Positions 16,097 through 59,778 of a stretch of 59,778 bases of DNA are shown here, in pieces. Each line of letters starts with the position of its first letter. Position 1 is the stretch's first letter. A program made the position numbers and the translations under genes. The DNA lies in contig JADGEK010000021.1 in assembly GCA_016744395.1 (NCBI GenBank), forward strand, positions 1 to 59,778, in the 5' to 3' direction. The notes under the pieces were generated by a model. That model was not told the origin of the DNA. It ran no database searches and was given only the letters and a program-made list of their open reading frames with translations. This DNA is from Gammaproteobacteria bacterium. Its GTDB lineage: Bacteria > Pseudomonadota > Gammaproteobacteria > GRL18.

Positions 16097-16859
16097 TCTT
16101 ATGAAAGAGAAGCAGCATGATAATGGTTTAACCCTGGCCCAAACCTTTCAAAAGTACTTTTCAATTGAGCTGGCAAATACCCCAGAATTGAAACAGAAAG
16201 CCTATAATATTCGATACCATGTTTATTGCAAAGAATTTGAATATGAATCCATTGATTCTTGCCCCAATGAAATGGAAACAGATGAATATGATGATTCTTC
16301 ATTACATTGCTTGATTATCCATAATGAAACGAATATCCCAGCAGCATGTGTCCGACTTGTACCAGCAACTGGTAGTGACTTAATCTTTGACTTATTGCCT
16401 TTTGAAAAGTATTGCTCAAGCAGCCTTGATAAAGAATTTATTAAGCAATTACATTTGGACAGAAATACAGAATGTGAAATTTCACGATTGGCGGTTGATG
16501 GAATCTTTCGCAAGCGTTCAGGTGAAGCTTTAACACGATTTGGTGATGTCAATCTGGAATTTTCCAAAGAAGAACAACGTACTTTTTTGTTGATTGCTGT
16601 GGCTGCATTTCTTGCCGCAACGGTATTGACTGAGCTATCAGGTAAGACCAATGTGTTTGCTATGATGGAACCCTTTTTACCCAGATTGTTAAGGCGTTCA
16701 GGTCTTATATTCCAGAGAGCGGGAAAGGATATTGACTACCATGGGATCAGAGCCCCCTATTTTATAACCACACAGTCTGCATTGGACAACATGCGTCCTG
16801 AACTACTAGAGCTGTATCATTGGATACATCAAAATATAGAACCTTCGTACTTAAAATGA
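16074..16859 (+). CDS. PEP-CTERM/exosortase system-associated acyltransferase
   Basis: A GNAT-like acyltransferase of the family found beside PEP-CTERM loci and related to long-chain N-acyl amino acid synthases. Visible marks: KQKAYNIRYHVYCKEFEYE (start of the LuxI-like fold, about 44-62), CLIIHNETNIPAACVRLVPA, and the conserved CEISRLAVDGIFRKR (about 142-156). The alpha-helical tail includes TNVFAMMEPFLPRLLRRSG. Expected reaction: transfer of an acyl group from acyl-ACP or acyl-CoA to an amine. The ATG at 16074 overlaps the upstream gene; ATG 16101 is an alternative but has no better ribosome site. Confidence 0.88.
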   Translation: MASSSIYNLMKEKQHDNGLTLAQTFQKYFSIELANTPELKQKAYNIRYHVYCKEFEYESIDSCPNEMETDEYDDSSLHCLIIHNETNIPAACVRLVPATGSDLIFDLLPFEKYCSSSLDKEFIKQLHLDRNTECEISRLAVDGIFRKRSGEALTRFGDVNLEFSKEEQRTFLLIAVAAFLAATVLTELSGKTNVFAMMEPFLPRLLRRSGLIFQRAGKDIDYHGIRAPYFITTQSALDNMRPELLELYHWIHQNIEPSYLK

Positions 16860-16886: not shown

Positions 16887-18875
16887 ATGGATAAAATTTT
16901 GCAATCGACTTTTCATTACGGGACCGCTTTTTCCAGAAATATTGGCTGGGTAACTGAAACTGAACAGGAAATATTGCGTAATAAACGAATTGCAATTGCT
17001 GGTTTGGGTGGTGTTGGTGGAAGTCATCTGATCACATTGACTCGTCTGGGTATTGGAAAATTTAACATTTCTGACTTGGATATTTTTGAGCTAGCTAACT
17101 TCAACCGTCAGGCGGGTGCGGCTATAAGCCATATTGATCGTAGCAAAGTTGATGTTATGGCTGAGCTGGCAAGAGATATTAATACTGAGTTAAATCTGAA
17201 GACTTTCCCTGAAGGAGTGAGTAAACAAAATCTGGATGAATTTTTAGAGGATGTTGACCTTTATGTTGATGGCCTGGATTTTTTTGCTCTGGAAGCCCGA
17301 AAAGCTGTTTTTGCTGCTTGCGCAGAAAAAGGCATTCCTGCTGTGACTGCTGCACCTCTTGGGATGGGTGTTGCCTTATTATGTTTTCTGCCAGGAAAGA
17401 TGTCCTTTGAAGAATACTTTCGTCTCAATGGACAGACAGAGGATGAACAGTTACTCCGTTTTCTTATGGGCTTGTCTCCTGCAATGCTACAAATGTCTTA
17501 TTTAGTGGATGATAGCCGAGTGGATCTGGATAATCATAAAGGCCCATCGACTCCCATGGCATGTGAGCTTTGCGCTGGCCTGGCAGCGACCAATGCTTTA
17601 AAAATCTTGCTTAATAGAGGTAATGTTATTGCGGCCCCAAATGGCTTGCATTTTGATGCCTTTCGCAATAAATTTTCAAAAACCTGGCGTCCCTGGGGGA
17701 ATAATAACTGGATTCAACGTCTGGGTATTGAAATTGTTCGTAATAAACTGTCAGAAAATTTAACAATGCCTAAAGTGACCTCAGAAGAAATCATATTAGA
17801 TACACCCATTGCCCGTATTCTTGACTTGGCTCGTTGGGCACCTAGTGGCGATAATACTCAGCCCTGGCGTTTTGAAATATTGGATGAGCATTCTTTTTTG
17901 ATTTACGCTAATGATACCAGAGACTGGTGTGTTTATGATTTAGATGGGCGGGCTAGCCAGACAGCAGTGGGAGCCTTATTGGAAACAATACAAATTGCGG
18001 CATCGAAAGAAGGGTTGAATGTCAGTTTTAATCAGACAGAAAAATCCAGTGAAGAAAACCCGATTATTGAGGTTAAACTGGTTAATGCGGCGGGTGAGCA
18101 AGTTACAGATCTTTTATTTCCCTTTATTAAAATTCGTTGTACTCAGCGCAGAGCTTTGTCTGGCAAAGTTTTAACCCAATCTGAAAAGGAACAGCTTGAA
18201 GCATCTGTTGGTGATGGTTTTAAGCTCATCTGGTTAGAAGGTCAATCAAACAAATGGCAAATGGCCAAACTACTTTTTAGAAATGCTCAGATCCGCTTAA
18301 CAATCGAAGAAGCCTATAAAGTACATAAACGAATTATTGATTGGAATTCACAGTTTAGTAAAGACAAAATCCCAGACCGAGCAGTCGGGCTTGATCCGTT
18401 TTCATTAAAAATGATGCGCTGGGCCATGCAGAGTTGGGAGCGTGTCACAATGCTTAATACCTGGTTTGCAGGAACATGGATTCCCCGCATTCAGTTGGAT
18501 TTGTTGCCAGCAATGCAATGTGGTGCACATTTTATTATTGTTTCAGATAACAAACTGGAAACTATAGATGACTATATTTCTGGTGGTCGGGCAATGCAAC
18601 GATTTTGGTTAACCAGTGCCCGTTTAGGATTACAATTTCAGCCAGAAATGACACCTTTAATATTTTCTCGGTATGTTAATGAATCAGAAAATTTCACACA
18701 ACCTTTCACAAAAAACACACAGGCTTATCAGCAAGCAGAAAAATTGGCTGTTGATTTAGAAATTATAGTGGGGAAAAAGATTAAAGGATATTCCGTTTTT
18801 ATGGGGCGAGTGGGCAAAGGAAGAATACCCATTTCCCGCTCCATTCGACTATCGATAGGTGAATTACAAAAATAA
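16887..18875 (+). CDS. ThiF-family (E1-like) adenylyltransferase fused to nitroreductase
   Basis: A two-domain protein of 662 residues. The N-terminal half is an E1/ThiF Rossmann domain: IAGLGGVGGSHL (about 36-47), the Arg of NFNRQ, VDGLDFF, and a CELC pair near 225. E1-like enzymes adenylate carboxylates. The C-terminal half (from about 300) is a flavin nitroreductase fold, with LARWAPSGDNTQPWRFEI as FMN-binding start and SGGRAMQRFWLTSARLGLQ. The fusion suggests carboxylate activation plus a redox step on one small molecule, probably the product of the upstream acyltransferase (27-base gap, same strand). The substrate is not known. Confidence 0.85.
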   Translation: MDKILQSTFHYGTAFSRNIGWVTETEQEILRNKRIAIAGLGGVGGSHLITLTRLGIGKFNISDLDIFELANFNRQAGAAISHIDRSKVDVMAELARDINTELNLKTFPEGVSKQNLDEFLEDVDLYVDGLDFFALEARKAVFAACAEKGIPAVTAAPLGMGVALLCFLPGKMSFEEYFRLNGQTEDEQLLRFLMGLSPAMLQMSYLVDDSRVDLDNHKGPSTPMACELCAGLAATNALKILLNRGNVIAAPNGLHFDAFRNKFSKTWRPWGNNNWIQRLGIEIVRNKLSENLTMPKVTSEEIILDTPIARILDLARWAPSGDNTQPWRFEILDEHSFLIYANDTRDWCVYDLDGRASQTAVGALLETIQIAASKEGLNVSFNQTEKSSEENPIIEVKLVNAAGEQVTDLLFPFIKIRCTQRRALSGKVLTQSEKEQLEASVGDGFKLIWLEGQSNKWQMAKLLFRNAQIRLTIEEAYKVHKRIIDWNSQFSKDKIPDRAVGLDPFSLKMMRWAMQSWERVTMLNTWFAGTWIPRIQLDLLPAMQCGAHFIIVSDNKLETIDDYISGGRAMQRFWLTSARLGLQFQPEMTPLIFSRYVNESENFTQPFTKNTQAYQQAEKLAVDLEIIVGKKIKGYSVFMGRVGKGRIPISRSIRLSIGELQK

Positions 18876-20258: not shown

Positions 20259-21458
20259 TTAAATACTTTCAATGAATGAATTAAATTCAATGCAACAATT
20301 ATGTTTATGGAATAGTACTTTCATTGTTTTTGCGTTAGTTTTGTACTCAGGAGTATTTAGTAATTCACTAGCTGTTTTTTTCAATAAAATCCCTTCTTGA
20401 GTTTGTTCAGAACGTATAATTAATCCTGTGGTTGTTTGTTCTATATACGACATGGTTAAATACTGATCCATATTACTGGCAATCCCCAAAACAGGGATCC
20501 CTTCAGATAGAGCTTGATAAGCTGTTGCACTTCCGCCATTACACACAACCAGATCACACTCACGGATGACCTCAGTTCCTGGTAAATAATCGGCTACATA
20601 AACATTCCCAGCCATTTTAATGTCAGAGCGACTGGCGGTAGCAACTAGAATATTAGCATTAAACTCAGATAAAACAGACATGATCTCAGGCAATTTATCT
20701 GCTGCACCAGAGGAGCCCAAAGTGACATAGATTTTTTGTTTATTCTTATCCAGACTTTCAAACCATTCAGGCAAAGGAATATCTGGAGACCAAATTAATG
20801 GGCCAATGAAATGATGATTGTCTGGTAATTTCTGAGTTGGAATAAGCTCAGGTACGTCCAGATAGAGCGTGTAATCACCATAAGTATAGACCTGTCTTAA
20901 GTCACCCATTGGTTCAAGATGATGTTGTTTTCGGAGCTGATTATGAGGGTGTGCATGATATTTAAAGACAAAGGGGCGTATTAACTGGAAGAAAAAATTA
21001 GTGATGGTATAACCCAGAAATCGAGTCATGGGATGATCGGGTAAAGGGTAGTTTTCTTGACTATAGGGGCTCCAGTGGGCGTTGGCTAGAGCAATATAAG
21101 GTGTGTGACTTAAAGGTGCACTGATCGCTAAAGAAAGTCTGAAATCTCCGACAATAATATCGGGCTTAATTTTATTAATAAGCTCAATGTCATCTTTGAT
21201 ATAACTGCTGAGTGTTTTTTTGTCATAAAACCTTGCACCAGATGCCAGAGCGTTAATAAATTGCTCACTGGGAATGCTTTTGATCGGCCATCGAGTTATG
21301 TTTGAGTTTTCAGGAAAAACAAAATCAAAGCCTTCAGCACAGGCAAAGTGAACATCATAGGTTTTTGGATCCAGTGATTGTGCTAAAACCAGAGGACGAA
21401 CAACATGAGCCAGAGTCACTGCTTCAGCAAAAAATAAGATTCGTTTTGTTTGGGGCAT
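20259..21458 (-). CDS. GT1-family (UGT/MGT-like) glycosyltransferase
   Basis: 399 residues with the GT-B fold of macrolide- and lipid-type glycosyltransferases. The N-terminal half begins KRILFFAEAVTLAHVVRPLVLA and holds the acceptor pocket. The C-terminal half has IYVTLGSSG and the nucleotide-sugar loop CDLVVCNGGSATAYQALSEGIPVLGI. Such enzymes usually glycosylate small or lipid molecules rather than chain-extending polysaccharide. Its start overlaps the stop of the epimerase gene by one base, and the RND exporter is the first gene of the same unit. It is therefore a good candidate to decorate a metabolite that is then exported. Confidence 0.85.
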   Translation of the reverse strand: MPQTKRILFFAEAVTLAHVVRPLVLAQSLDPKTYDVHFACAEGFDFVFPENSNITRWPIKSIPSEQFINALASGARFYDKKTLSSYIKDDIELINKIKPDIIVGDFRLSLAISAPLSHTPYIALANAHWSPYSQENYPLPDHPMTRFLGYTITNFFFQLIRPFVFKYHAHPHNQLRKQHHLEPMGDLRQVYTYGDYTLYLDVPELIPTQKLPDNHHFIGPLIWSPDIPLPEWFESLDKNKQKIYVTLGSSGAADKLPEIMSVLSEFNANILVATASRSDIKMAGNVYVADYLPGTEVIRECDLVVCNGGSATAYQALSEGIPVLGIASNMDQYLTMSYIEQTTTGLIIRSEQTQEGILLKKTASELLNTPEYKTNAKTMKVLFHKHNCCIEFNSFIESI

Positions 21459-22591
21459 CAGGATTTTCCTGCTCTGCCAAATAAACCGTATTTTTCTAAC
21501 TCATCCACTGTTTTTTCATATCCGTCAAAGGACTCCTGATCAGATGCCCATTGCACAAATTCTTCCATGCCCTGTTCCAGAGAGGTAGATGGTGAAAAAT
21601 TAAGTCCATGCTTTGCTTGAGTGAGATCAGCATAACAGGAAAAAATATCGCCCTGACGAAACTCACCTAGATCGAGCATTTCCACATCCTTCTTACAGGC
21701 TTTGGCCAATGCACTTGCAACATCTCGAATTGTGTCGTTGCAACCACTGCCAACATTAAATATTGCGGGGGAGCGGTTATTATTTTCTAAAGCCAGCACA
21801 TTGGCTTTAGCAACATCAAATATATGTACAAAATCCCTTCCAGGCATTCCTTGTTCATAAAGTGATAGTGCTTGATTGGCAATGATTCTGTTATAGAAGA
21901 TGGAGACAACACCAGTATAAGGATTTTTTAATGATTGTCTGGAGCCGTAAACATTAAAATATCTTAGCATCGTGACAGGAATACCAAAGGTATTCGCGGC
22001 ATAACGACAATAATCCTCCTGATGTTTTTTTGTTTCAGCATAGACAGATAATGGGTCAAGTGGGCGCTCCTCAATGGTTGCGACAGGTTCAAGGATGGTT
22101 CGACAATGAGGGCATAGTTGGTGAAACATTCCTTTGTCCAGATCCTCTCGAAGACGAAGAGAAGGATAAATGGTTCCATGCTCTGGACAGGTATGGGTTC
22201 CCTCTCCATAAACAGCACGTGAAGATGCAAGTATAAATTGTTTGAGTTTAATGTTTTGTTTAACGATGCATTCTAGTAGTGTTGCTGTACCAATGACATT
22301 AACATCAACATAATTTCGTATATCGTACATGCTTTGTCCAACACCAGTCAGTGCAGCAAAATGATAAACGGCATCAATATCTTCAAGTGCCTTATTGACA
22401 TCTTCAGGTTGACACACATCACCATATATCTTTTCAATGTCAGGGTGGAGGTAGTCTGGAAAGTCAGCATTTTTACCATGTATTTGTGGATCAAGTAAAT
22501 CCAGGATTCGAACTCTATGGCCTTTTGCAATAAGCTGATCTGCAGTGTGTGAGCCAATAAAACCTGCCCCACCTGTGATTAATATATTCAT
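21458..22591 (-). CDS. NAD-dependent sugar epimerase with zinc-ribbon-like insert (dTDP-L-rhamnose 4-epimerase-like)
   Basis: Extended short-chain dehydrogenase of 377 residues. The NAD site is TGGAGFIGSH (about 7-16), with SSRAVYG and the catalytic pair in YAETKKHQE. Between these lies an insert with two Cys pairs' worth of ligands (CPEHG ... CPHC), which I associate with dTDP-L-rhamnose 4-epimerase-like enzymes and their relatives. The product is a nucleotide sugar, most likely donor for the overlapping glycosyltransferase. The exact sugar is not determined. It is the middle gene of a three-gene minus-strand operon. Confidence 0.82.
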   Translation of the reverse strand: MNILITGGAGFIGSHTADQLIAKGHRVRILDLLDPQIHGKNADFPDYLHPDIEKIYGDVCQPEDVNKALEDIDAVYHFAALTGVGQSMYDIRNYVDVNVIGTATLLECIVKQNIKLKQFILASSRAVYGEGTHTCPEHGTIYPSLRLREDLDKGMFHQLCPHCRTILEPVATIEERPLDPLSVYAETKKHQEDYCRYAANTFGIPVTMLRYFNVYGSRQSLKNPYTGVVSIFYNRIIANQALSLYEQGMPGRDFVHIFDVAKANVLALENNNRSPAIFNVGSGCNDTIRDVASALAKACKKDVEMLDLGEFRQGDIFSCYADLTQAKHGLNFSPSTSLEQGMEEFVQWASDQESFDGYEKTVDELEKYGLFGRAGKS

Positions 22592-22592
22592 G

Positions 22593-24905
22593 TCATTTCC
22601 TTGATTCGTTAAATTGTTTTTGTTGTCTGTATTTTATTCCCAGTGCTAATATCGCAGGTAAGAGTAAAATATCAAAAAACAATGCAGCCAGAAGTCCAAC
22701 ACCTGTCATTAAGCCAAATTGATGGGTTGGAATAAAGGATGAAAATGCGAGAATAAAAAATTGCCCACAAAGAATAATGGTGGTTGCTGAAATGGCTCGC
22801 CCTGCTGAACGGTAGGCTCGCATTAGAGCAATAATGGGTTTAATGCCTTTATTAATTCGCCTGAGATAGGCATCGTAGACATGAATAGTATCATCAACGG
22901 CAATGCCAATAGCAACGCTTAAGATTATAGCTGTTCCAATGTCCAATGTGATACTCAGGATACCCATGGTAATAAAGATAAAGAGGATAGGGGAAATATT
23001 GGGCAACATAGCTAACATTGCTGGTTTGTAGGAGCGCCAGAATAGGGTCAGGCAGAGAAAAATTAATAAAAATGCCATAGCTCCACTTTTAAGTTGTCCA
23101 GAGATCAGCTGTTTTTCCTGATCGGAAAACATTCGGGCACTACCAGCAAACTGCCATTGTAAACTGATGTGATTCTTTTTCATGAGTTGCTCAATTTTTT
23201 CCATGGTCTCTCGGATTTTTCTGGCACCATGGACATTTAAGTTGAGCAGCATTCGAGTACGTTTAAACTCCTGATCGACTAACTCAAAGAGGTCGGTTCC
23301 ATCGTAAATAAATAGATATTGACTGATAATGGGGCGTTTATCAGGTATAGAGCGGTAGGCAGGATTTTCGTTATGGAATGCCCAGTGCATTTCTTCGACA
23401 ATATCTGCCATTGAAAGGCTTGCATCAACTTCAGGTAAATTATCTATCTCTTGTTGAATTGCTTTTATTTGTTTCAAGTTAATGGGATCTTTAAGGTCAT
23501 CACGTTGTTTGCCATCAAAGATAATTTCCAGAGGTGTTGTTCCTGCAAGATTTTTTTGGATTAGTTTGTCTGATTGAATAAGAGAATGTTGTTGAGGAAA
23601 GTAGAGCAATAAATCTGTTTCTGGTCTCACCTTGATTGCTTGTGTGAGTCCTCCCAGAAGCAACAAGCTCAGGATAACAGTAGAAACAATTCCAGCATGA
23701 CGGATACTGATACGCGCCCCAAACATGACAATGCGGTTAAACTGTGTCATTCCGACTTTTTGTATTTGCCAGCTATTATTATCATACCTAAGAAAGACTG
23801 AAGGAATAATCCAAATGACTAATAAATAAAGCATTGCAACTCCAACTGCTGCTGCATAACCAAATGTTTGAATGGGTGGCAGAGGGCTAAACCCTAGTGA
23901 GAGCAGGCCAGCCATTGTGGTAATTGCTGTAAACCGAATTGGGCGCTCAACGTCGTTTAAGGCGTATAAAATTCTGGAATGTCCAGAGTGACCAATTGCA
24001 GAAGCGTGTAAAAATGCATTAAAAAAATGTATGAAAAATGCAATAGTTAAGGAAGTGAGTAATGGACTGACCATTGAGACTGGCATTGAAAAGGGCTCAT
24101 CAATCAAGACAACAAATAGTAGCGAACTATTAACGGCAATACCTATTGATATCATAACAAGTACGATGATGAGTATACTTCTAAATAACCACCAGATTAA
24201 AACAATGCCGAGAATAACGGTTGCTGGAATAAAGCGCAGATTATCTGCCAGCATGGTGTCAAACATGGTGACTTCAATTTCAATACTGCCAGCAGTTGCG
24301 ACAATGTAGGGGATTAGATTGTATTTGCTAATTAAGTCCATTGTCATTGTTTTTATTTTTTCACTGTCAAAACTGCTTTCCAATGGGTTTGGTCTAACCA
24401 GCATTGCGATGTGGGAGCCATCAGTTGAGGCAATACGTTTTGGAGCAAAGCGATCGTTAACCACTCTAGCTTTGCGCTGGAAAGTATTCAGTTTTTGAAT
24501 TTCTTCTTTTTTCAGTACATATTCCACTGAAAAGCCATCGCTGGTGCCAAAAATTTTGTCCATAGTAGTGATTGCTATGACACGATCAATCAGTGGATCT
24601 TTTTCTAATTGGGTAACAACTGACTCAAAGGGGGTGAGAAATGTATCTGCATATAGGTTATCCCCTGTAAATAAAATAATAAGCATGTCATCTTCAGGAA
24701 ATTGCTGTCGTAATTCTTTTTCAAGCAGAATAACTGGTTCATCCTCATGAAAAAACACATCTTCACTATTATCTGGTTGTAATTGATTTAAAAAAGGAAT
24801 GGGTGTTATAAAAAGTATTGAAAGGAGGAATAATGATAGCCAGAGAGGTAATCTTTTTTGCTTTAGAGCAAACATGAATTTTTGATCCAATGGATGAATG
24901 AACAA
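22593..24905 (-). CDS. RND/MMPL-family exporter
   Basis: 770 residues with two repeats of one membrane helix, a large periplasmic loop and five further helices. The second repeat has the conserved GTAIILSVAIGIAVDDTIHVYDAYLRR, with acidic residues of the proton path. This single-chain RND architecture, rather than the tripartite drug-pump form, is used by MmpL-like and HpnN-like lipid transporters. It is the first gene of the operon with epimerase and glycosyltransferase, and divergent from the LolA-like/beta-barrel/NRPS operon. Together they would cover inner membrane, periplasm and outer membrane. Confidence 0.85.
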   Translation of the reverse strand: MFIHPLDQKFMFALKQKRLPLWLSLFLLSILFITPIPFLNQLQPDNSEDVFFHEDEPVILLEKELRQQFPEDDMLIILFTGDNLYADTFLTPFESVVTQLEKDPLIDRVIAITTMDKIFGTSDGFSVEYVLKKEEIQKLNTFQRKARVVNDRFAPKRIASTDGSHIAMLVRPNPLESSFDSEKIKTMTMDLISKYNLIPYIVATAGSIEIEVTMFDTMLADNLRFIPATVILGIVLIWWLFRSILIIVLVMISIGIAVNSSLLFVVLIDEPFSMPVSMVSPLLTSLTIAFFIHFFNAFLHASAIGHSGHSRILYALNDVERPIRFTAITTMAGLLSLGFSPLPPIQTFGYAAAVGVAMLYLLVIWIIPSVFLRYDNNSWQIQKVGMTQFNRIVMFGARISIRHAGIVSTVILSLLLLGGLTQAIKVRPETDLLLYFPQQHSLIQSDKLIQKNLAGTTPLEIIFDGKQRDDLKDPINLKQIKAIQQEIDNLPEVDASLSMADIVEEMHWAFHNENPAYRSIPDKRPIISQYLFIYDGTDLFELVDQEFKRTRMLLNLNVHGARKIRETMEKIEQLMKKNHISLQWQFAGSARMFSDQEKQLISGQLKSGAMAFLLIFLCLTLFWRSYKPAMLAMLPNISPILFIFITMGILSITLDIGTAIILSVAIGIAVDDTIHVYDAYLRRINKGIKPIIALMRAYRSAGRAISATTIILCGQFFILAFSSFIPTHQFGLMTGVGLLAALFFDILLLPAILALGIKYRQQKQFNESRK

Positions 24906-25293
24906 AATGTCATTTTAAAGCATAGTTAGAATAATGAGTTTGGTCAACTCTCTTTTACAATATTCAATAGATGAAAAATTACAGTGTAAATAATTATTGA
25001 TTGGTTATGTGATTAGTTAGTTTTTAGAAGTATTTAGACTTGTTTTATGTACCTTTGATAAAGTAAAGTGCAAAGTTGATCTATGGAATTGATGTTAGTA
25101 CAAACAGGTTCTACAACCGTTTATTTTTATTACTTGCAGTTGGCTAAAATTCCTGGGAATAAATTGTATATTGCTCCTTGTTTATAAACTGGGAGACCTT
25201 GTGTTTTAATAGTATTATATCTATACTTAGTTTGATTGCTTTATAAGGTTTGAACGTTAACTTGTTAATTTAAAAGAATTTTGGATGTGTTTT
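24906..25293. other. Divergent promoter region
   Basis: 388 bases without a gene between the RND operon (minus) and the LolA-like operon (plus). A possible plus-strand sigma-70 promoter is TTGTGT (25199-25204), 17 bases, TATACT (25222-25227). No sigma-54 promoter or TGTCA-N7-TTACA site was found. The promoter for the minus side is unclear. Confidence 0.4.
25199..25227 (+). promoter_or_regulatory. Possible sigma-70 promoter for the LolA-like/NRPS operon
   Basis: TTGTGT and TATACT with a 17-base spacer; the -10 box matches 5 of 6 positions and the -35 only 3 of 6. It lies 67 bases before the ATG at 25294. Confidence 0.3.
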
Positions 25294-26142
25294 ATGAAAC
25301 GTTTTACACTGCTTAATTTTATTTTTAAATCAGTTGTAACTTTTGTGTCATTGACTTTTTTAATCCCTTCTACTCTTTGGGCAAAAGATTTTAGTAATGG
25401 CAAAGAGCTGGCAACGGCTGCTTACAATCGTCCAGATGGTGATAATTCACTCTCTTTGGGCACTATGGTTCTGGTTGAAAAAGGGCACGATCCTCGAGTC
25501 AGGCAAATGTATACTTTCAATCTTGATGCAGGCAATGAAAATAAATTTATGATGATCCGCTTTAAAAAACCTGCGGATATTACCAACACTGGCCTGCTAA
25601 CTATTGACCACAGTGGTGACAAGGAGACAGAGCAGTGGGTTTATTTACCTGCAATTAATAAATCAAGACGCATCTCAACTAAACGAAGAGGCGGGCGTTT
25701 TGTAGGATCAGATATATTATATGAAGACCTCAGAGATAGAACCGTCGATATGGATAATCATAAAATATTGCGAAAGGAAAAATTCAATAAGATGGGTACA
25801 ATTGTGTTGGAGAGTATTCCCATTGATCCTGATAATTCTGTTTATGACAGAAAAATTGCCTGGATCCACCCCAAGACCTTGCTGGCGTTAAAGGTCGATA
25901 TTTATCAAAATGGGAGCAAAGAACCAGTTAAGCAAGTACTTGCTAAACAGATAGAAAAAAAGCAAGGTTACTGGACGGTAATGAAAAGTGTGATTCGAGA
26001 CTTGAAAACCAAACACGAGACTCACTTAAAAATTAATAAAATCAAATATGACCAGGCTATTCCAGAGGCACTTTTTTCATTGAAATACCTTGAAGATCCG
26101 CAAAGAGAAAAAGAAGTGATAAAGCTTCTTTCAGGAAAATAA
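25294..26142 (+). CDS. LolA-like periplasmic lipid/lipoprotein-binding protein
   Basis: A signal peptide (about 1-30, ending LWA) is followed by a LolA-like open barrel of the 'outer membrane lipoprotein-sorting protein' type: MVLVEKGHDPRVRQMYTF, FMMIRFKKPADITNTGLLTI, WVYLPAINKSRRIST, GSDILYEDL, and IAWIHPKTLLALKVDIY. Members of this family usually sit next to MMPL/RND transporters and are thought to carry hydrophobic cargo across the periplasm. ATG 25294 is preferred over 25285 because TTGGA lies 8 bases upstream. It is 3 bases from the next gene. Confidence 0.83.
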   Translation: MKRFTLLNFIFKSVVTFVSLTFLIPSTLWAKDFSNGKELATAAYNRPDGDNSLSLGTMVLVEKGHDPRVRQMYTFNLDAGNENKFMMIRFKKPADITNTGLLTIDHSGDKETEQWVYLPAINKSRRISTKRRGGRFVGSDILYEDLRDRTVDMDNHKILRKEKFNKMGTIVLESIPIDPDNSVYDRKIAWIHPKTLLALKVDIYQNGSKEPVKQVLAKQIEKKQGYWTVMKSVIRDLKTKHETHLKINKIKYDQAIPEALFSLKYLEDPQREKEVIKLLSGK

Positions 26143-26145
26143 GTT

Positions 26146-28113
26146 ATGTTACGTACTTTTGCTGGATGCACCCTCTTTTTAATTTTGTTTGTATCGCAAA
26201 ATGTGTTTTCCAGAATGGATGATTTGAATAACAAAGACAATATCTTTGTCTTTTCAAGCAAAGTGAAAGCATTGCAATATGCAGAAAAGAAAAAGTTGTC
26301 TGGACTTAAAGCCAACACAACAACTCAACATCAAAATAGACAACGCTATGTAGTATATCTTAAAGGTTATCGTCAGTGGTCAGTTGCTTTTAAGCAGGCT
26401 CAAACATTGGAAAAAATGGGCTATAAAAAAATAGAAGTGCGTAAGGATAAACAAGGGCGCAGTTATTCTATTATTGTTGCGCAATTATTAAATAAGAAGA
26501 AAGCAGGTCAAGTTTTTAATAAGTTGCGTGCTGTGGGATTAAAAAATGTCAAAGTAAAAACGGATATGATTAAACTAACTCGCTATATTGTCAAAACACA
26601 ACAGATTCCAGTTGTTCCAATCGCAAAAACAAAACCCGTTGTAGACGAGAAAAAGACACAAGCCCCTATTGGTTTAGAAATAAAAAAACCTGTGGTTGGA
26701 CTTGTTGAAAAAGTACTACCTCCAGAAAAAGAAGAGCCGATTGTTATTTTAATTGATGAAGATTCCTTGACCGATGATGAGATGATGATTGTAATGTCAG
26801 ATGAATCTGATGTGACATTTGATATTAAAATGGATGATGAATTGGAAGCAAAAGATGTGGTTTGGGCTATTGATAAAATGGTTCTTGAAGAAGAATTGTT
26901 TACTCGCTCATCTTCCGATGTGACTAATGTGGAGTATGCCCATATCTCTTCACATGTTAACTGGCAAGTTTCAGATAAGTGGGATGTACAACTAGCAGCA
27001 CGAATTGATGCTTATAATCAGCATGGTAAACGTGGTACTGATGTTGAGGACGCCACCCTGGACTATGAAGAAAACTACTTGCGCTATCGTGATGATCATA
27101 TGCGTGTCACAGTGGGTACACAAACAATTCGCTGGGGGCGGGTTGATGTGCTGGCACCTACCGATAATATGGTGACTTTGGATCTATCACGAGGTGTGTT
27201 GCCGAACTGGGATGATCTTTATCGTTCTTCTCTTGCTATTAGAGGAGAGTTTTTTTCAGGGCAGAGTAAGTTGGATTTTGTCTACCTGCCTAAATTTAGA
27301 GAGGCACAACTAGCAGAAGATGATGAAAGTGTCTGGTATCCCGTTAATTTTCGTAATGGGGAAATTTTGGGCGGAAAATCAAGTCCATTGTCTAGAGCTA
27401 TTATTCAAAATGCCACAATAGATGATCATATTAATGGTGATGGTGGTCTGGGATTTCGCTTTAGTTCAAATGTGAATTCAGTTGATTATGCTCTCACTCT
27501 GCAAAGAGTTCGCTTATCTGCGCCTTCATACAAAATAAATGAGCAATTCAGACAAGATTTATTGGTTAATCCTCTAATGGCAATTGCTAATCAGGGTAGT
27601 TATGGTGACACTTATACAGAAGAACATCCCAGAAATTGGATAGTTGGTGGGGACATGGCTTTTCAATGGAAACAAGTTACTTTACGCTTTGAGGGTGCCT
27701 GGTTCTCTGATATGCCTGCAACAACAGAGAATTTGGAGTTTAAAACCTATGATGGCTTCAAGTGGGCAACAGGTATGGAGTTTTATCCAGGTGATGCTGA
27801 TACAAGGGTGATTCTTCAACTATCGGGAAATCATATTGACGAAAAGGAAAAAATTGTTGATCGTGATAATAGCATGACTTTAAGTGGTGAAAGTGAAACG
27901 CTTTTTTCTAATAATCGCTGGCGATTGAGCACTAAATTCAGTTTGGGGCTGGACATTAAAGATATCTATATTTCACCAGAGCTTTCTTACCTTGGCTGGG
28001 AGCCCTTTGAAATTTATAGTGCTGTGCATTACCTTGATGGTAGTGAGCAGTCGTTGGGGCATTTTTATCAGGAAAACTCGATGATTACAGTGGGGTGGCG
28101 AGGCCGCTACTAA
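26146..28113 (+). CDS. SPOR-like domain plus DUF1302-type outer-membrane beta-barrel protein
   Basis: 655 residues. The signal peptide spans about 1-22. Residues 65-145 form a SPOR-like repeat (RYVVYLKGYRQWSVAFKQAQTLEKMG; SYSIIVAQLLNKKKAGQVFNKL). An acidic linker rich in Val and Asp reaches about 250. The C-terminal 400 residues look like a DUF1302-type outer-membrane barrel: alternating strands, TVGTQTIRWGRVDVLAPTDN, LSRGVLPNWDDLYRSSLAIRG, and a strand-like C-terminus. DUF1302/LolA-like/RND sets recur together and probably move lipids outward. The SPOR part would tie the barrel to peptidoglycan. Confidence 0.78.
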   Translation: MLRTFAGCTLFLILFVSQNVFSRMDDLNNKDNIFVFSSKVKALQYAEKKKLSGLKANTTTQHQNRQRYVVYLKGYRQWSVAFKQAQTLEKMGYKKIEVRKDKQGRSYSIIVAQLLNKKKAGQVFNKLRAVGLKNVKVKTDMIKLTRYIVKTQQIPVVPIAKTKPVVDEKKTQAPIGLEIKKPVVGLVEKVLPPEKEEPIVILIDEDSLTDDEMMIVMSDESDVTFDIKMDDELEAKDVVWAIDKMVLEEELFTRSSSDVTNVEYAHISSHVNWQVSDKWDVQLAARIDAYNQHGKRGTDVEDATLDYEENYLRYRDDHMRVTVGTQTIRWGRVDVLAPTDNMVTLDLSRGVLPNWDDLYRSSLAIRGEFFSGQSKLDFVYLPKFREAQLAEDDESVWYPVNFRNGEILGGKSSPLSRAIIQNATIDDHINGDGGLGFRFSSNVNSVDYALTLQRVRLSAPSYKINEQFRQDLLVNPLMAIANQGSYGDTYTEEHPRNWIVGGDMAFQWKQVTLRFEGAWFSDMPATTENLEFKTYDGFKWATGMEFYPGDADTRVILQLSGNHIDEKEKIVDRDNSMTLSGESETLFSNNRWRLSTKFSLGLDIKDIYISPELSYLGWEPFEIYSAVHYLDGSEQSLGHFYQENSMITVGWRGRY

Positions 28114-28147
28114 TTATTCGCTTTTTGGTCGATTTTTTATAAATTTT

Positions 28148-31100
28148 ATGCAAACAATTGATAAAAATAATCCATTCTGCATGTCTCTGGCATCAAACCA
28201 AAGAGAAATATGGTTTGATCAAAAGGTCTACCCTGATTCTCCCTTGTATAATATTGGTGGTTATTTACGTATTGATGGCCATGTTGATTTTGAATTGTTA
28301 CAACAGGCTATTCGTCGGCTCATTCAGGAAAGTGAATCTTTACGCATTTCGATAAAGGAAGAGAGCAATGAGGTTTTTCAATGTGTTTTACCAGATGTTC
28401 CTTATACGTTAGAATGTATTGATTTTTCTCATGTAAAAAAAGCTGACACTTTTGCAATTAATTGGATCAATACTCAATTTCAGCACCCCTTTGCCATTGA
28501 TGAGAACTCCCTCCTTTGGCGTTTTGCCTTACTTAAAGTTAATTCGCAATGCTTTTTTTTTATGACCCAATACCACCATCTGACTGCTGATGGTTGGACA
28601 ACTAAGGTTGTTATTGATCGATTAACAGAGCTTTATAACGCTTCAATAGAAAATCGGCAGGCTTCACCTGCATCAAATCTCAATTATTCTGATTATGTGT
28701 CACAAGAGCAGGAGTATTTAAAGTCTAAAGCATTTCATCGTGATCAGGCTTACTGGCTTGATCTTGTCCCAAGCTTGTATCCGCCAATAATTGAGCCAGC
28801 CCAGACCACTTCACAAATTCCTAAGGCAATCACACACCGTTTTTTGCTGAGGCATGATTTTTACAATCAGCTAAAGAATTTTTCTAAAAACTATAATGTT
28901 GCAAGTTACCATGTCATTTTGAGTGCTTTGATCATATACGTATTTCGGATCTACGGACGTGATGAAATAATCTTTGGTATCCCGAGTCTAAATCGAAGCG
29001 GTGCCCGTTACAAAGATGTTCTCGGACTTTTTATGAGTCTTTCACCATTGCCTATAGATCTCACTGCTGATTGTCATGTGGATGAATTATTGGCCATGTG
29101 TTCTGTGTCTTTAAAAAATAATTATCGCCATCAACGATTTCCTTTAAGAGAGATTAATAAACGTCTTGGAATGATGCAGCAGCATCGCAATTCATTGTTT
29201 GATATTATTGTATCCTATGAAAAGCAGGATTATTCTACCCTCTTTGGAGGGGCTCCTGTGAGTGCTCATCAACAATTTAGTGGTGTTGCTCGTTATCCTC
29301 TCGGAGTAACGATTTGTGAGTTTAATGAGTCGCATGATGTTGAGTTCATTCTTGAAGGGGCTCAGAATATTTTTGATGCTCAAGCTCTCGAACGATTAGA
29401 ACTGGGCTTAAAGTCTATTATTGAACAAATGATTTCCAAGCCTCAGCAACAGTTAAGTGAGATTAATTTATTGTCTCAATCTGAAACAAAATTTCTGTTG
29501 AAAACGTTTAATACTAGTCAAAACCTGACTGTCTTTTCAGAGAGTATTATTGGCTTGTTTCAGAAACAAGTTCATTTAAATCGGCAATCTATCGCTATTG
29601 AAAGTGCCCATCATCGCTTAACTTTTGAACAACTCGATCAGCAAAGTAATCAATTAGCTCATTATTTAATGGAAGTTTTTTTGTTTGAAAAAGGACAGAA
29701 GCACGAACAAATTATTGCCATTAGCTTGTCTCGTAGTGTTGAAATGATTGTTGCCTTGTTAGCTATCCTAAAAACTGGGTCTGCTTATTTACCTATTGAT
29801 CCAGATACCCCTAATAAACGTATACAGCAAATGCTGGAGCAAAGTAAGGCTTTGGCACTTATTTGTCGTGAAGAATCTCAGCGAGACTTTTCAGCACTGG
29901 GTGCTAATTTAGTTATTTTAGATAAAATACAAGAGCAAGTGAAACAACAATCCGTTGAGTCAACTCACCTTATTTTACAAGAAAATGATTTAGCCTATGT
30001 GATTTTTACTTCAGGTACCAGTGGTCAGCCAAAAGGGGTTTTATTGGAACATGGTGCTTTATCCCGTCGCTTAATTGGTTTAGCAAAACTGTTTGGGATT
30101 CAGCATGGAGATAGAATCGGGCAAACGGTTCAGTTTAATTTTGATCCCTCAATTATTGAAATCTTTTTACCTTTAATCCATGGTGGTTGTTTAATTCTTG
30201 CTCCAGAGCGTCACCAGACTCCTGATGAAATGGCACGATTTGTCATTGATAATCGGATTAATATGTTGGCACTGGTACCTTCTGGCTTACGTGCGTTATC
30301 ATTAGGACTGTCCCAGTTTTCAGTCTCAGAGTTAGACTTACGGGTAGTCTGTTGTGGTGGTGAGGTTTTATCTCCTGAACTGGCTAGAGAATTCGTTCAT
30401 CAAAGTCATGCCAGGCTATTTAATGTTTATGGGCCAACAGAAACGGCTATTCTGGCGACCGCATGGGAATGTATTGATTCAGATCCCTCTTTGAATAAAA
30501 ATGCATTACCCTTGGGCAGCCCGATTGATGACTCCCGTATTTATATTTTGGATCAGAGAAACCAGTTGCTGCCTCCTGGAGTGAGCGGTGAAATCGCAAT
30601 TGGCGGCATTACTGCCAGGGGATATTTACATGATGAAAAAATGACAGAGGAGAAATTTTTATCGGATACCTTTTTTAAGCAAGAGGTAGAGCAAGAAACT
30701 GATATTAAAGGTCAGCGGTATTATAAAACAGGTGATAATGGTTATGTTGATTTTAATGGCCAGCTTTATTTTAAAGGACGAATCGATCGGCAGGTTAAAA
30801 TCAGCGGCTATCGTATTGAGCCAGGCGAAATTGAAGTGGTACTTGAGAGCAGTGATTGTGTTGCTAAAGCGGCAGTCACTCTCTTTGAGGAGCAGGAAAA
30901 GAAAAGCTTATATGCTTTCGTTGAATTGATGAAAGAACGAAGTGATAGTGAAAAAAAAACCTGCTTAACAGACTTATCAACCTTGCTCCTTCATTCTTTA
31001 CCAGAGTATATGCAGCCAAGGGGGATTGTCGCCTTGGAAAAGCTGCCAGTGCTTCCAAATGGAAAACTTGATTATTCAGTATTGCCAGCACCCACATTAA

Positions 31101-32056
31101 ATTCCTCAGAATTGCTTCAAACACTGCCTAGAAGCTCGCTTGAAACTCACTTAATGCAATGTTGGGAAGAGGTGCTTGATACACATGAGTTAAGTATCAA
31201 TGATAATTTTTTTGACCTGGGGGGGGATTCTTTGTCTGCTGTCAAGTTGATAAAAAAAATTGAATCATTGGTAGGACATCACTGTCCATTGTCCTTCATT
31301 CTTGAATTTTCCACTATTGAGCAACAGGCTAAAACTTTAAGTCGTGAATTACCATTGGAGGCCGTGCCTTTACTAACAACATTGAGTAAAAATGAAAACT
31401 TGCCTGCATTTTATCTGGCCGCATCTGGTCATGGCGATGCTATTCGTTTCTCAAAACTGGCAGATGAATTGGGGGAGGCTTGTAGTTTACATATGCTGCA
31501 ACCTTCAGGTGAATCGGTTGAGCATAAAACGATTGAAGAATTAGCACGTTGTTATGCAGAGCTGATTTTAATTCGTGAAGAGCCTCCAGGTTATCTTGGT
31601 GGATTTTCTATTGGCGGTATTACAGCATTGGAAACGGCCAGAATTTTGACTGAGCAGGGTAAACCTCCGCTAGGTGTTTTGCTATTAGACACAGTCTTTC
31701 CGCATCGTTTATTGAAATCCCCGATACTGTATTCGCTGCTCCGATTTATTTCGAAACTACCTATTTTTAACCAAATTCCAATCAATGGTCGACGTCTGGA
31801 TACAATGCTTGCTGATCCAGGCATTCGTACGCAATTAATTGCTCTGAGAAAATATCAGTTAAGTGATTATAATGATCCCGTTGCTCTATTCATCTCTTCA
31901 GGGTTATGGGGGAAAGGATGGTTTTTCTTTCGTTGGAAGACTGCCCTTAATTCTGAAATCAAGTATTATTCTCTTACTGGAATGCATGGAGGAATTTTTC
32001 AAAAAGCACATATTACTGTGTTGTCAAATGCTATCAGACATTATTTTAAGAAATAG
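28148..32056 (+). CDS. Single-module nonribosomal peptide synthetase (C-A-T-TE)
   Basis: 1302 residues. Condensation domain: HHLTADG active site at 143-149. Adenylation domain: about 470-1000, with TSGTSGQPKG (from 621), NVYGPTETAI, the YKTGDNGYVD motif and PNGKLDYSVLP. Thiolation domain: FFDLGGDSLSAVKL with the phosphopantetheine Ser1028. Thioesterase: GGFSIGGI with Ser1154 and a C-terminal His (GMHGG). By hand alignment to GrsA the specificity residues read D-P-I-A-C-G-V-I-L-K, which I cannot assign. A lone module beginning with a C domain can join an outside acyl donor to one amino acid. No MbtH-like gene is visible. The ribosome site is weak. Confidence 0.93.
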   Translation: MQTIDKNNPFCMSLASNQREIWFDQKVYPDSPLYNIGGYLRIDGHVDFELLQQAIRRLIQESESLRISIKEESNEVFQCVLPDVPYTLECIDFSHVKKADTFAINWINTQFQHPFAIDENSLLWRFALLKVNSQCFFFMTQYHHLTADGWTTKVVIDRLTELYNASIENRQASPASNLNYSDYVSQEQEYLKSKAFHRDQAYWLDLVPSLYPPIIEPAQTTSQIPKAITHRFLLRHDFYNQLKNFSKNYNVASYHVILSALIIYVFRIYGRDEIIFGIPSLNRSGARYKDVLGLFMSLSPLPIDLTADCHVDELLAMCSVSLKNNYRHQRFPLREINKRLGMMQQHRNSLFDIIVSYEKQDYSTLFGGAPVSAHQQFSGVARYPLGVTICEFNESHDVEFILEGAQNIFDAQALERLELGLKSIIEQMISKPQQQLSEINLLSQSETKFLLKTFNTSQNLTVFSESIIGLFQKQVHLNRQSIAIESAHHRLTFEQLDQQSNQLAHYLMEVFLFEKGQKHEQIIAISLSRSVEMIVALLAILKTGSAYLPIDPDTPNKRIQQMLEQSKALALICREESQRDFSALGANLVILDKIQEQVKQQSVESTHLILQENDLAYVIFTSGTSGQPKGVLLEHGALSRRLIGLAKLFGIQHGDRIGQTVQFNFDPSIIEIFLPLIHGGCLILAPERHQTPDEMARFVIDNRINMLALVPSGLRALSLGLSQFSVSELDLRVVCCGGEVLSPELAREFVHQSHARLFNVYGPTETAILATAWECIDSDPSLNKNALPLGSPIDDSRIYILDQRNQLLPPGVSGEIAIGGITARGYLHDEKMTEEKFLSDTFFKQEVEQETDIKGQRYYKTGDNGYVDFNGQLYFKGRIDRQVKISGYRIEPGEIEVVLESSDCVAKAAVTLFEEQEKKSLYAFVELMKERSDSEKKTCLTDLSTLLLHSLPEYMQPRGIVALEKLPVLPNGKLDYSVLPAPTLNSSELLQTLPRSSLETHLMQCWEEVLDTHELSINDNFFDLGGDSLSAVKLIKKIESLVGHHCPLSFILEFSTIEQQAKTLSRELPLEAVPLLTTLSKNENLPAFYLAASGHGDAIRFSKLADELGEACSLHMLQPSGESVEHKTIEELARCYAELILIREEPPGYLGGFSIGGITALETARILTEQGKPPLGVLLLDTVFPHRLLKSPILYSLLRFISKLPIFNQIPINGRRLDTMLADPGIRTQLIALRKYQLSDYNDPVALFISSGLWGKGWFFFRWKTALNSEIKYYSLTGMHGGIFQKAHITVLSNAIRHYFKK

Positions 32057-32186
32057 TCTCTTGGTACAGTCTCTTTATTCATATTGAAATTTATTCTGCT
32101 CTAATTGAAGTGAAAGCAAGTGGGGAGTTGGTTGAATTATTGCGGCAGAAGTGTAACCAATTTGAAAATATTATTTGCTTAAAATG

Positions 32187-34394
32187 TTATTGGTTCTTCC
32201 ATTTTGTTAACTCTTTAATTGCATACTTATAACCTTGTAATGCAATCTTATCACCTTGTTTATAAGCCCTGATAGAAAAGTTTTTAAGTGGTGGTTGGAG
32301 GTATATGTCTGCAAGACCATCCATCATTTCTTTACGCTTGGCTAAACTACCAATCATACTGGCTCGGGTCAATATTTCAATCATGTTGGGGTAACGAATT
32401 GTTTCAACCATTGGGTTCAGTTTGTTAAAAAGTAGCTTCCAGCCATTCATTCCTCCTTCATTTTCAGTATTGTTAAGTAAATCTTCTTTGCTATTGACAT
32501 CAACAGCAATCACTATTCCACCGTCGTTATATTTTCTCATGACATCAACAGGTACGTTATTTAATAAGGCACCGTCAACAAGTAGATCGCCATTATCGAC
32601 TTGTGGCGGGAAAAGTCCTGGCGGTGTATTGCTATTGAGGACTGCTGAAAATAATGAACCATTTTTATGAGTCATAATGGTGGCGCGGCTAATGTTACAG
32701 GAAACACTATAAAATCGATGCCATAAGTCTTCAATGCTGACATCAGCAAAAAAGTTTTTGAGACTTTGAGTAATTTTTCTACCTGAAAATAGGGAAACTA
32801 TTGGCAGTGTAAATTCATCGCCTTCTATGCAGAGTTGTTTTGTCTTGGTGATCATTGTGTCGTAATCCCACTGCATCGCACACTCTGCAGCAATAATGGC
32901 TCCCATGCTGTTACCTCCCACGAGATCAATCGGAATGTTCAGCTCCTGCAATGCACGAATAACACCTATATGAGCAAAACCACGGGCACCACCACCACCA
33001 AGAACAAGTCCAATTGCATTACCCGTTAAAAAACGAGCTACCCGGCCATAGTCAGATGGGTTACCTGCCCTGATGTGATGATGCATATCGATAGAACGTA
33101 GTGAAAGCCATTGGGAAGTGCCTGAGGGTACTTGAATATCCTCCTCATGGAGTAATACCAGTGTTTTTTTTGCACATGTCGATAACGTGCTATTAAGGAT
33201 ATTTTGTTCAAAATCAGAAATTAATGGGCTATTTTCTGCTTTTGCAACAAATATTAGGTGATCAGCTTGTCGAAGACAGCGGTGGGTCCAATTATTCAAA
33301 TGTTTATCGATATTATAGATGACATGTCTTTGTGCATTTTCCTGGGCAGATAACCATTGCAAGATCGTATCATTTCGCTCATCAGTGAAGGTAATCTGAG
33401 CTATTTTGCTGTCATTAAAGGACTGTTCTACTTGTGCGCTGTCAATAATTGAGCTTGGACCATGTTCATTTAATTGGGTTGCAAGTAAAGAGCTAAAATC
33501 GGAAAGAATAACATCAGCAGAGATAGGAATAACAGCAAAAGTTTCTGCTGAATGTGCTTTATGATAGCCTGAATCTTTCGACTGCTGAATAATACTTTTT
33601 ACTAAAGTCTGGTTGATTTCCAATGGGTATTTTAGAAGTAATTTTTCAAATGAAGTGCGATTCAGGCTAGCAACTAAAGAGTCTCGAATGGCTAAAATTT
33701 CTGAGTCGCTACTGTATTCACCAATCACATTTTGCTCACAAATTGCTTCACCCCTTCCGATAATAGAAATTATTTTAGGTGGCTCTGCATTGCTTTGCTG
33801 CCTTTTTTGTAACCTTCCGTGAATTACAATAAATAATTCTTGAGAAATTTGATTCTGTTGAATTAAGTACTGATTAGCTGGAATGGATGTAATTTTCAGT
33901 TCATTGATTAAAGCACGGACAATGTCATCATTCATGCCAATAAATAGTTTGCTGAGTCGTAAAGCAAGGTTGGTTTCATTCCAGCTCAGGCGGTTTGTGA
34001 TCCTGGAACCAATAAGTGCCATTTGGTCTGGAAATTTGGAGTTAAGAGTGTGAAAATCTTCAATCGAAAGAAAGTATAAGACTGATTTTTTCTTTGAGCA
34101 GGCGCCAGTGGTGCGAATGCAGTCGCCAGCAAGTAGAAATTCGCCAAATAAATGGTTATCAGATGCTTCGGATAATGTAATTTGCTCATTATCTCGCTGG
34201 GTAAAAACTTGAATTTCACCTGAAGAAATAAGATAAAGGCCATCAGACTTTTCCCCCTGATGATATAAGACATCATTTATTTGAACGACTCGCATTTGCA
34301 AGCTTTTTGATAGCTCTGCAAGTAATGATTTATCCACACCTCTTAATAAAATATTTTTGTTTAAGAGTGATTGGAGCGCTTGATTTTGTGTCAT
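32187..34394 (-). CDS. Patatin-like phospholipase with two cyclic-nucleotide-binding domains (NTE-like)
   Basis: 735 residues. Two cyclic-nucleotide-binding-like domains come first: about 15-140, with FGEFLLAGDCIRTT in the cassette position, and about 155-270, more degenerate. A linker of about 180 residues follows. The C-terminal patatin domain has the oxyanion loop GGGGARG (from 466), nucleophile Ser496 in GNSMG, and dyad Asp607 in VDGALLNN. The architecture resembles bacterial NTE-type lysophospholipases. It is convergent with the NRPS gene and divergent from the EPS operon. It may release fatty acids for the local acyltransferases; that link is speculative. Confidence 0.9.
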   Translation of the reverse strand: MTQNQALQSLLNKNILLRGVDKSLLAELSKSLQMRVVQINDVLYHQGEKSDGLYLISSGEIQVFTQRDNEQITLSEASDNHLFGEFLLAGDCIRTTGACSKKKSVLYFLSIEDFHTLNSKFPDQMALIGSRITNRLSWNETNLALRLSKLFIGMNDDIVRALINELKITSIPANQYLIQQNQISQELFIVIHGRLQKRQQSNAEPPKIISIIGRGEAICEQNVIGEYSSDSEILAIRDSLVASLNRTSFEKLLLKYPLEINQTLVKSIIQQSKDSGYHKAHSAETFAVIPISADVILSDFSSLLATQLNEHGPSSIIDSAQVEQSFNDSKIAQITFTDERNDTILQWLSAQENAQRHVIYNIDKHLNNWTHRCLRQADHLIFVAKAENSPLISDFEQNILNSTLSTCAKKTLVLLHEEDIQVPSGTSQWLSLRSIDMHHHIRAGNPSDYGRVARFLTGNAIGLVLGGGGARGFAHIGVIRALQELNIPIDLVGGNSMGAIIAAECAMQWDYDTMITKTKQLCIEGDEFTLPIVSLFSGRKITQSLKNFFADVSIEDLWHRFYSVSCNISRATIMTHKNGSLFSAVLNSNTPPGLFPPQVDNGDLLVDGALLNNVPVDVMRKYNDGGIVIAVDVNSKEDLLNNTENEGGMNGWKLLFNKLNPMVETIRYPNMIEILTRASMIGSLAKRKEMMDGLADIYLQPPLKNFSIRAYKQGDKIALQGYKYAIKELTKWKNQ

Positions 34395-43637: not shown

Positions 43638-43644
43638 AATCATA

Positions 43645-59645: not shown

Positions 59646-59778
59646 ATTGGTAGCATTTTCTCTTGTGTAAATGATGAAAAGAGTATTTTCCAATACTGAA
59701 ATGAGCCTGAAATAGGTACAATTCTAGATCTCGGGAGTAGACTTATCCACATATCCCCAGGTCTGCCATTTATGGAGA
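59646..59778. other. Right-edge sequence
   Basis: No gene can be called in the last 130 bases. It should hold the promoter of the minus-strand group. A single perfect DnaA-box-like TTATCCACA lies at 59743-59751. Confidence 0.4.

Follow-up and report, generated by a model that had tools for sequence, protein, structure and literature searches.

In a 59,778 nt window, the whole stretch of DNA analysed here (positions 1-59778 of contig JADGEK010000021.1, which ends at 59778), six adjacent genes of a gammaproteobacterium encode a HAE3/MMPL-type RND pump, an NAD-dependent sugar epimerase/dehydratase (SDR), a GT1 glycosyltransferase, a LolA-like periplasmic carrier, an outer-membrane barrel and a single-module nonribosomal peptide synthetase (NRPS; Table 1). 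We propose that the core of this region, consisting of carrier, barrel and pump, is a proton-driven trans-envelope lipid exporter of an XrtA/PEP-CTERM exopolysaccharide (EPS) locus, in which the pump was locally exchanged and the NRPS added, and that the molecule exported here is probably a sugar-bearing acyl-amino acid. We give this reading a probability of about 0.5.

The carrier-barrel-pump triad is conserved across many sulfur and marine bacteria. Scanning named genomes with a nine-row barrel profile recovered 59 loci in Gammaproteobacteria and Thiobacillus/Hydrogenophilales, ten of them on the same contigs as the loci of the window's relatives. The triad is complete in 48 of these loci, 44 of which have the order LolA-barrel-MMPL on one strand, with the pump placed upstream in three and reversed in one; the carrier gene immediately precedes the barrel gene in every one of the 48 and is the first of the three genes in 45. 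The 11 incomplete loci are mostly short or cut by a contig end, but two with 21 kb (L060 and L062) contain no pump that we could find. The three proteins diverge in step, their pairwise identities being strongly correlated (r 0.95-0.96) across 34 rows; besides the window, these rows cover 33 of the loci, with contig-cut, near-duplicate and triad-incomplete ones left out. Closer to the window, the barrel was found in 10 of the 24 genomes of its family and in 11 of the 57 genomes searched in all. Carrier, barrel and pump occur together in seven of the ten relatives' loci; of the other three, two (L009 and L019) end at contig ends and one (L020) has no pump beside the barrel. An earlier note on this DNA, made from the sequence letters alone, had described a set for trans-envelope export, and a route for a hydrophobic molecule from inner to outer membrane is borne out by the co-occurrence of the three parts, their contiguity in most relatives, their correlated divergence and their likeness to published systems that combine HAE3, DUF1302 and LolA/DUF1329 proteins.

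Membership of the carrier in the LolA superfamily is indicated by its PF17131 match and a DUF1329 match above cut-off, and its profile matches the LolA-like crystal structures 9tp6, 4z48 and 3bk5. HAE3 TIGR00921 is the best NCBIfam model for the pump but scores 139 bits, short of its curated cut-off of 352, while the cut-off of the broader Pfam MMPL model is cleared; a transmembrane-embedded GIAVDDTIH motif (D671, D672) is invariant in a 20-row alignment. The start listed for the pump gene is TTG, with an ATG 10 codons further in. Some Sedimenticola/Chromatiales-type loci have, as the MMPL pump of the triad, a longer ORF (open reading frame) whose N terminus carries a PAS-like domain (PAS_8 clears its cut-off in L053 and narrowly misses it in L063), possibly a sensor-coupled lipid exporter.

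The barrel has no Pfam match even at E<=1 save a weak one to a TonB barrel. Pfam DUF1302 is matched neither by this protein nor anywhere in the window's own genome; controls were silent in that genome search, and when it was repeated in 120 genomes of the phylum, 30 matched and the window's genome did not. However, aligning a 49-row barrel profile to 16 DUF1302 proteins with hhalign gave a probability of 97.1 (E 4.7e-11) vs 0.2 for an unrelated barrel family from the same locus as control, so that by profile comparison the protein is homologous to DUF1302, remotely only. An AlphaFold2 model built from the 49 sequences (mean pLDDT 83; an earlier one from nine sequences was poor, at 60) predicts a signal helix, a SPOR-like alpha/beta domain (residues ~55-152), a disordered linker (~160-234) and a beta-barrel (235-655). 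In this predicted structure the barrel part aligns to 18-strand OprD/Occ porins (Z ~22, 3.1-3.8 A over ~300 residues), and also to maltoporin and the alginate exporter AlgE (Z ~20); a sequence search of solved structures with the barrel profile found nothing. The window barrel itself has no Pfam SPOR match, and a Zooshikella relative has one above cut-off (2.2e-7). The labels 'DUF1302-type' and 'SPOR-tethered', which had been attached to this protein from sequence, can thus be kept, the first as remote homology and the second on the strength of the model and the Zooshikella relative.

The window as a whole is an XrtA/PEP-CTERM EPS locus, in which eleven XrtA-system NCBIfam models clear their cut-offs (TIGR03027, 03007, 03018, 03016, 03006, 03019, 03087, 03088, 03108, 04063 and 03097). 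On the left of the six genes, a sugar transferase is accompanied by a histidine kinase paired with a sigma-54 regulator (taken here as PrsK and PrsR) and by a TPR protein (taken as PrsT). Also on this side are a TIGR03694 acyltransferase and a FeeM-type synthase, the latter fused to a cyclic-nucleotide-binding (cNMP) domain, as well as a separate cNMP-binding protein, a ThiF-Acg fusion and a PEP-CTERM protein; a cNMP/NTE patatin and then the EPS operon follow on the right. The earlier note had named the setting just as an EPS locus and did not recognise its XrtA/PEP-CTERM identity, and its account of the genes omitted the FeeM-type synthase and the TIGR03694 acyltransferase, which with the XrtA context are recurring partners of the exporter. 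The FeeM-cNMP fusion is a candidate maker of export cargo, and its domain composition suggests that acyl-amino acid synthesis may be under second-messenger control.

This association extends beyond the window. Scoring of XrtA-locus markers in the fetched flanks by tblastn thresholds placed at least one marker in 27 of the 59 triad loci: a FeeM-type gene in 6, a TIGR03694-type gene in 8 (either acyltransferase in 11), the ThiF fusion in 19, a PrsT-type TPR protein in 18, the export protein in 8 and XrtA in 4. The triad lies among XrtA-locus genes in Zooshikella, Sedimenticola, Chromatiaceae, Hydrogenophilaceae and the family of the window. Strong FeeM homologues are present in 4 of the 24 family genomes (window counted), all four of which also encode the barrel. 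The marker set is not promiscuous, as evidenced by the marker-free flanks of Thiobacillus triads; in this group (L072-L101) the triad is often outside XrtA loci and may handle a different lipid.

The NRPS, epimerase and GT1 genes beside the triad are a rare local addition. Among the 59 triad loci there is no epimerase, one GT1 and no close NRPS homologue, the only match to the NRPS query being a separate 537-aa ORF of 24% identity; likewise, none of the ten relatives' loci has the NRPS or SDR, and one has a GT1 at 40%. Within the family, GT1 occurs in 2 of 24 genomes, the SDR only in the window (1 of 24, at E<=1e-40), and a full-length NRPS relative in a single genome besides the window (G018, ~40-41% identity), the other family NRPS matches listed having at most 36% identity. 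On these counts the six genes are not conserved as a unit, an outcome that the earlier note had itself named as refuting its reading; the candidate unit was rejected on the family and 59-locus data together. In wider searches the GT1, whose nearest solved relative is CalG1 (2.6e-11), was found in 1 of 398 genomes of the phylum, the window itself (E<=1e-45), SDR relatives at 39-42% identity in 10 further genomes of the 398, and the NRPS in only two other genomes of 274 across the class (E<=1e-150, 32% identity). The NRPS and the patatin form a convergent pair in both the window (28148-34394) and G018 (L038), which represent two genera of the family; in G018 the contig ends at the NRPS start and the triad is on a separate contig.

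The NRPS motifs HHLTADG, LGGDSL and GFSIG are intact. At the positions that we take to be the Stachelhaus selectivity positions, read by hand, the adenylation domain has the code DPIACGVIL vs DPIACGVIF in G018, alike in 8 of 9 positions at 41% overall identity, and both codes hold the Asp that would mark an alpha-amino acid. The best solved match of the condensation domain (128.6 bits) is the starter domain RzmA-Cs, identified as such in the available part of its report, which also places the chain-length site at R148 (PMC7804268). By our hand alignment this site would be Thr in the window and G018 enzymes, which would suit a longer acyl chain, provided that this is indeed a starter domain. 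By itself, a single condensation-adenylation-thiolation-thioesterase (C-A-T-TE) module would yield an acyl-amino acid or an EntF-like oligomer, and the 'acyl-peptide' proposed earlier is excessive for a one-module synthetase.

Phylogenetic comparison is suggestive of an exchange of the window pump relative to its own carrier and barrel. In the 34-row set, the carrier of the window and that of another family genome, G021, fall inside the family clade (100/98). In trees of 20 rows (the window and 19 loci, with long branches such as L076 and L095 dropped), the barrels of the two do so as well (99/99), while the remaining family pumps group with Zooshikella (98/95), apart from the window/G021 pump. 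The window pump is 39-41% identical to the family pumps and 42% to that of Sedimenticola, compared with 56-60% identity to the family for the carrier and 49-52% for the barrel; the window and G021 pumps share 65%. The mirrored topology was rejected for the barrel (p 0.0047). In both genomes the pump gene is outside its usual place after the barrel, being divergent, in one run with the SDR and GT1 genes, in the window and upstream of the carrier in G021. These two are also the family genomes with GT1, which in G021 lies ~2 kb from the pump on the opposite strand.

Our ORFs agree exactly with the six gene boundaries given previously, and the names given, apart from that of the barrel, are supported by Pfam and NCBIfam domains. 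Because spacing is tight within both gene runs (a 1 bp gap and an overlap in one, gaps of 3 and 34 bp in the other), the layout supports two predicted divergent operons, MMPL-epimerase-GT1 and carrier-barrel-NRPS. The imperfect palindrome between the two runs is a possible operator. A sigma-54 scan returned 70 two-mismatch matches vs 47 expected, none prominent at the divergent region, and was set aside as a guide to control by the regulator; a sigma-70 scan returned 50 vs 54 expected. Elsewhere in the window, the locus has no exosortase A gene, with no room for one between stp1 (ends 43637) and stp2 (starts 43645); G021 carries XrtA between these two genes (L051 from 21012; counterpart area in the window, 42327-44796). 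The only exosortase found in the window's genome, which is 96.6% complete, lies on contig C166, with a score short of the XrtA cut-off. The ThiF and Acg halves of the fusion protein are separate ORFs in L053 and L057.

Table 1 Features of the window and of related pump genes, with coordinates, strand and basis of assignment.
Feature	Position	Strand	Basis
GT1 glycosyltransferase, macrolide/EryCIII type	20259-21458	-	EryCIII-like_C 1.8e-11, UDPGT 8.2e-8 (Pfam)
NAD-dependent sugar epimerase/dehydratase (SDR)	21458-22591	-	Epimerase 2.9e-54; stop/start overlap with GT1
HAE3/MMPL RND pump	22593-24905	-	Pfam MMPL 1.2e-29, NCBIfam HAE3 TIGR00921 1.2e-40
Divergent intergenic region	24906-25284	.	Imperfect palindrome at 25174-25195
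LolA-like periplasmic lipid carrier (PF17131)	25285-26142	+	LolA_like PF17131 4.9e-53, DUF1329 1.2e-5
Outer-membrane barrel, N-terminal SPOR-like domain, remote DUF1302 homologue	26146-28113	+	Model and profile comparison
Stand-alone C-A-T-TE NRPS module	28148-32056	+	Condensation, AMP-binding, PP-binding, Thioesterase in order
FeeM-type N-acyl amino acid synthase and cyclic-nucleotide-binding domain fusion	13269-14537	+	FeeM 9.4e-19, cNMP_binding 1.9e-25
PEP-CTERM/exosortase-associated acyltransferase (TIGR03694)	16074-16859	+	2.3e-64, above cut-off
ThiF/E1-like and Acg nitroreductase fusion	16887-18875	+	NCBIfam; neighbour of triad in 19/59 loci
cNMP-binding/NTE-type patatin phospholipase	32187-34394	-	Pfam; convergent with NRPS
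XrtA/PEP-CTERM EPS genes: export protein, chain-length factor, tyrosine kinase, deacetylase, FemAB, glycosyltransferases, amidotransferase, O-ligase	34633-54908	+	NCBIfam
PAS-like-domain pumps	L053 12088-14709; L057 11577-14204; L058 11668-14286; L063 11330-14317

HAE3/MMPL pumps lift lipids, LolA folds carry hydrophobic molecules and SPOR domains bind peptidoglycan. Because of these established roles, and those of DUF1302-type sets, we propose a trans-envelope path for an acylated molecule, in which the pump would extract a small acylated compound from the inner membrane, passage through the periplasm would fall to the LolA-like carrier, and the DUF1302-related, predicted 18-strand barrel, with its SPOR-like domain near the peptidoglycan, would deliver the compound to the outer membrane or the outside. 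The recurrence of acyltransferases near the triad points to N-acyl amino acids as the general cargo, and not to a peptide; in most relatives with an XrtA context this would probably be a lipid of the N-acyl amino acid type, synthesised by the FeeM/TIGR03694-type acyltransferases of the same locus. According to the available passages of two reports, a mutant of Methylomonas LW13 in an N-acyl amino acid synthase (NAS) lacks a polysaccharide band (PMC11072679), and NAS genes of Stieleria lie within a PEP-CTERM/EPS region (PMC7293339). In the window, the pump appears to have been swapped for one predicted to be co-transcribed with the epimerase and GT1, and the one-module NRPS to have joined the carrier-barrel operon. 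Given the NRPS and GT1 found here, an acyl-amino acid that is glycosylated is plausible, and the local cargo would probably be an acyl-amino acid bearing a sugar.

Several observations weigh against this proposal. No XrtA marker was detected in 32 of the 59 triad loci (8 of these are contigs <10 kb), and most of the marker-free loci are Thiobacillus-type, beside PEP carboxylase and purL-type genes; the triad can therefore do without an XrtA locus, which limits any fixed functional link, and a recognised acyltransferase is near the triad in only 11 loci. Constraining the family pumps to group together costs 10 log units, which is not significant in the approximately unbiased (AU) test (p 0.065), for which the clade was picked after the first tree had been inspected. 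Assignment of the condensation domain to the starter type is tentative, as it scores 114.7 bits for Txo2, close behind RzmA-Cs, and only 74 for the CDA starter domain. Lastly, DUF1302/DUF1329 sets may serve uptake, as in growth on Tween 20, and the porin-like fold matches AlgE as well, leaving room for polysaccharide passage.

Three other explanations bear on the same data. It is doubtful that all six genes serve one pathway dedicated to the synthesis, glycosylation and export of a single acyl-peptide. Tight spacing, two divergent operons each with exporter parts and the contiguity of pump, SDR and GT1 are in its favour, as is G021, which has a GT1 and the same pump type in the same locus slot; yet the SDR, GT1 and NRPS are rare or absent in the 59 triad loci (0, 1 and 0 close homologues) and rare in the 24 family genomes (SDR 1, GT1 2, full-length NRPS relative 2, window counted). 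Moreover, the components separate, with GT1 and pump but neither such an NRPS nor the SDR in G021, and the NRPS without GT1 in G018. We regard it as unlikely that the triad serves uptake or efflux of environmental hydrophobic compounds and owes its place in the EPS locus to chance or to a protective role. This would be in line with published relatives that serve monoterpene tolerance and Tween 20 growth, and with the position of most Thiobacillus triads outside XrtA loci, but the triad is placed among XrtA-locus genes repeatedly and in several lineages, and we noticed no degradation genes beside it in the window. Passage of polysaccharide through an AlgE-like barrel, with the LolA-like protein and pump maintaining the envelope during EPS export, is highly improbable, since despite the EPS locus and the fold matches to AlgE (Z ~20) and maltoporin, OprD-type porins reach equally high Z and the fold does not discriminate, the sequence homology of the barrel is to DUF1302, and the locus already has an export protein (TIGR03027) and an XrtA-system outer-membrane protein (TIGR03016).

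Returning to the lipid exporter, a wider hypothesis can be put forward tentatively: XrtA/PEP-CTERM loci might hold a dedicated machine through which N-acyl amino acid lipids reach the EPS matrix, and in the window pump exchange and GT1 (with the NRPS and epimerase) might have given the carrier and barrel a new cargo, a glycosylated acyl-amino acid. If true, orphan N-acyl amino acid synthases would gain a destination for their products, lipids shipped into the exopolysaccharide matrix, and a conserved exporter within the same loci would make the fate of these lipids testable. The window also suggests that an RND lipid exporter could change cargo through a pump swap alone.

Export sets of this kind and links between NAS genes and exosortases are already known. 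Our literature search, whose coverage excluded most subscription journals, found no report that XrtA loci hold a conserved triad of carrier, barrel and pump. The nearest published systems, as far as the available passages describe them, are AmeABCD of Castellaniella defragrans, a HAE3/LolA-type/DUF1302 set for hydrophobic substrates (monoterpenes; PMC6394551), and PP_0765/PP_0766 of Pseudomonas putida, which with PP_2018/PP_2019 are linked to Tween 20 use (PMC10866462). AmeABCD encodes a HAE3-family RND pump, a LolA-superfamily periplasmic protein and a DUF1302 barrel together, a grouping that the triad resembles. Unlike that system, the window has no gene for AmeC (YCF48/HCF136-like) between or directly beside the triad, its barrel is below Pfam DUF1302 recognition and bears a SPOR-like domain, its carrier belongs to PF17131 and not DUF1329, and the context is EPS synthesis instead of monoterpene degradation. 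The P. putida genes are comparable in that a DUF1302 barrel, a DUF1329 carrier and an efflux pump have one phenotype in common, on a hydrophobic substrate, but they are divided between two loci and tied to Tween 20 use. The NRPS resembles EntF-type enzymes in its C-A-T-TE order and size (1302 vs 1295 aa chain), from which it differs in that we found no aryl-acid/siderophore genes beside it and that its condensation domain best matches a starter domain. N-acyl amino acid synthases have been linked to PEP-CTERM/exosortase loci, as cited in PMC11072679, PMC7293339 and PMC4897644, and the XrtA locus of the window likewise has FeeM-type and TIGR03694 acyltransferases; whereas no route of export is mentioned in the available passages of those papers, the window has a conserved exporter within the same locus.

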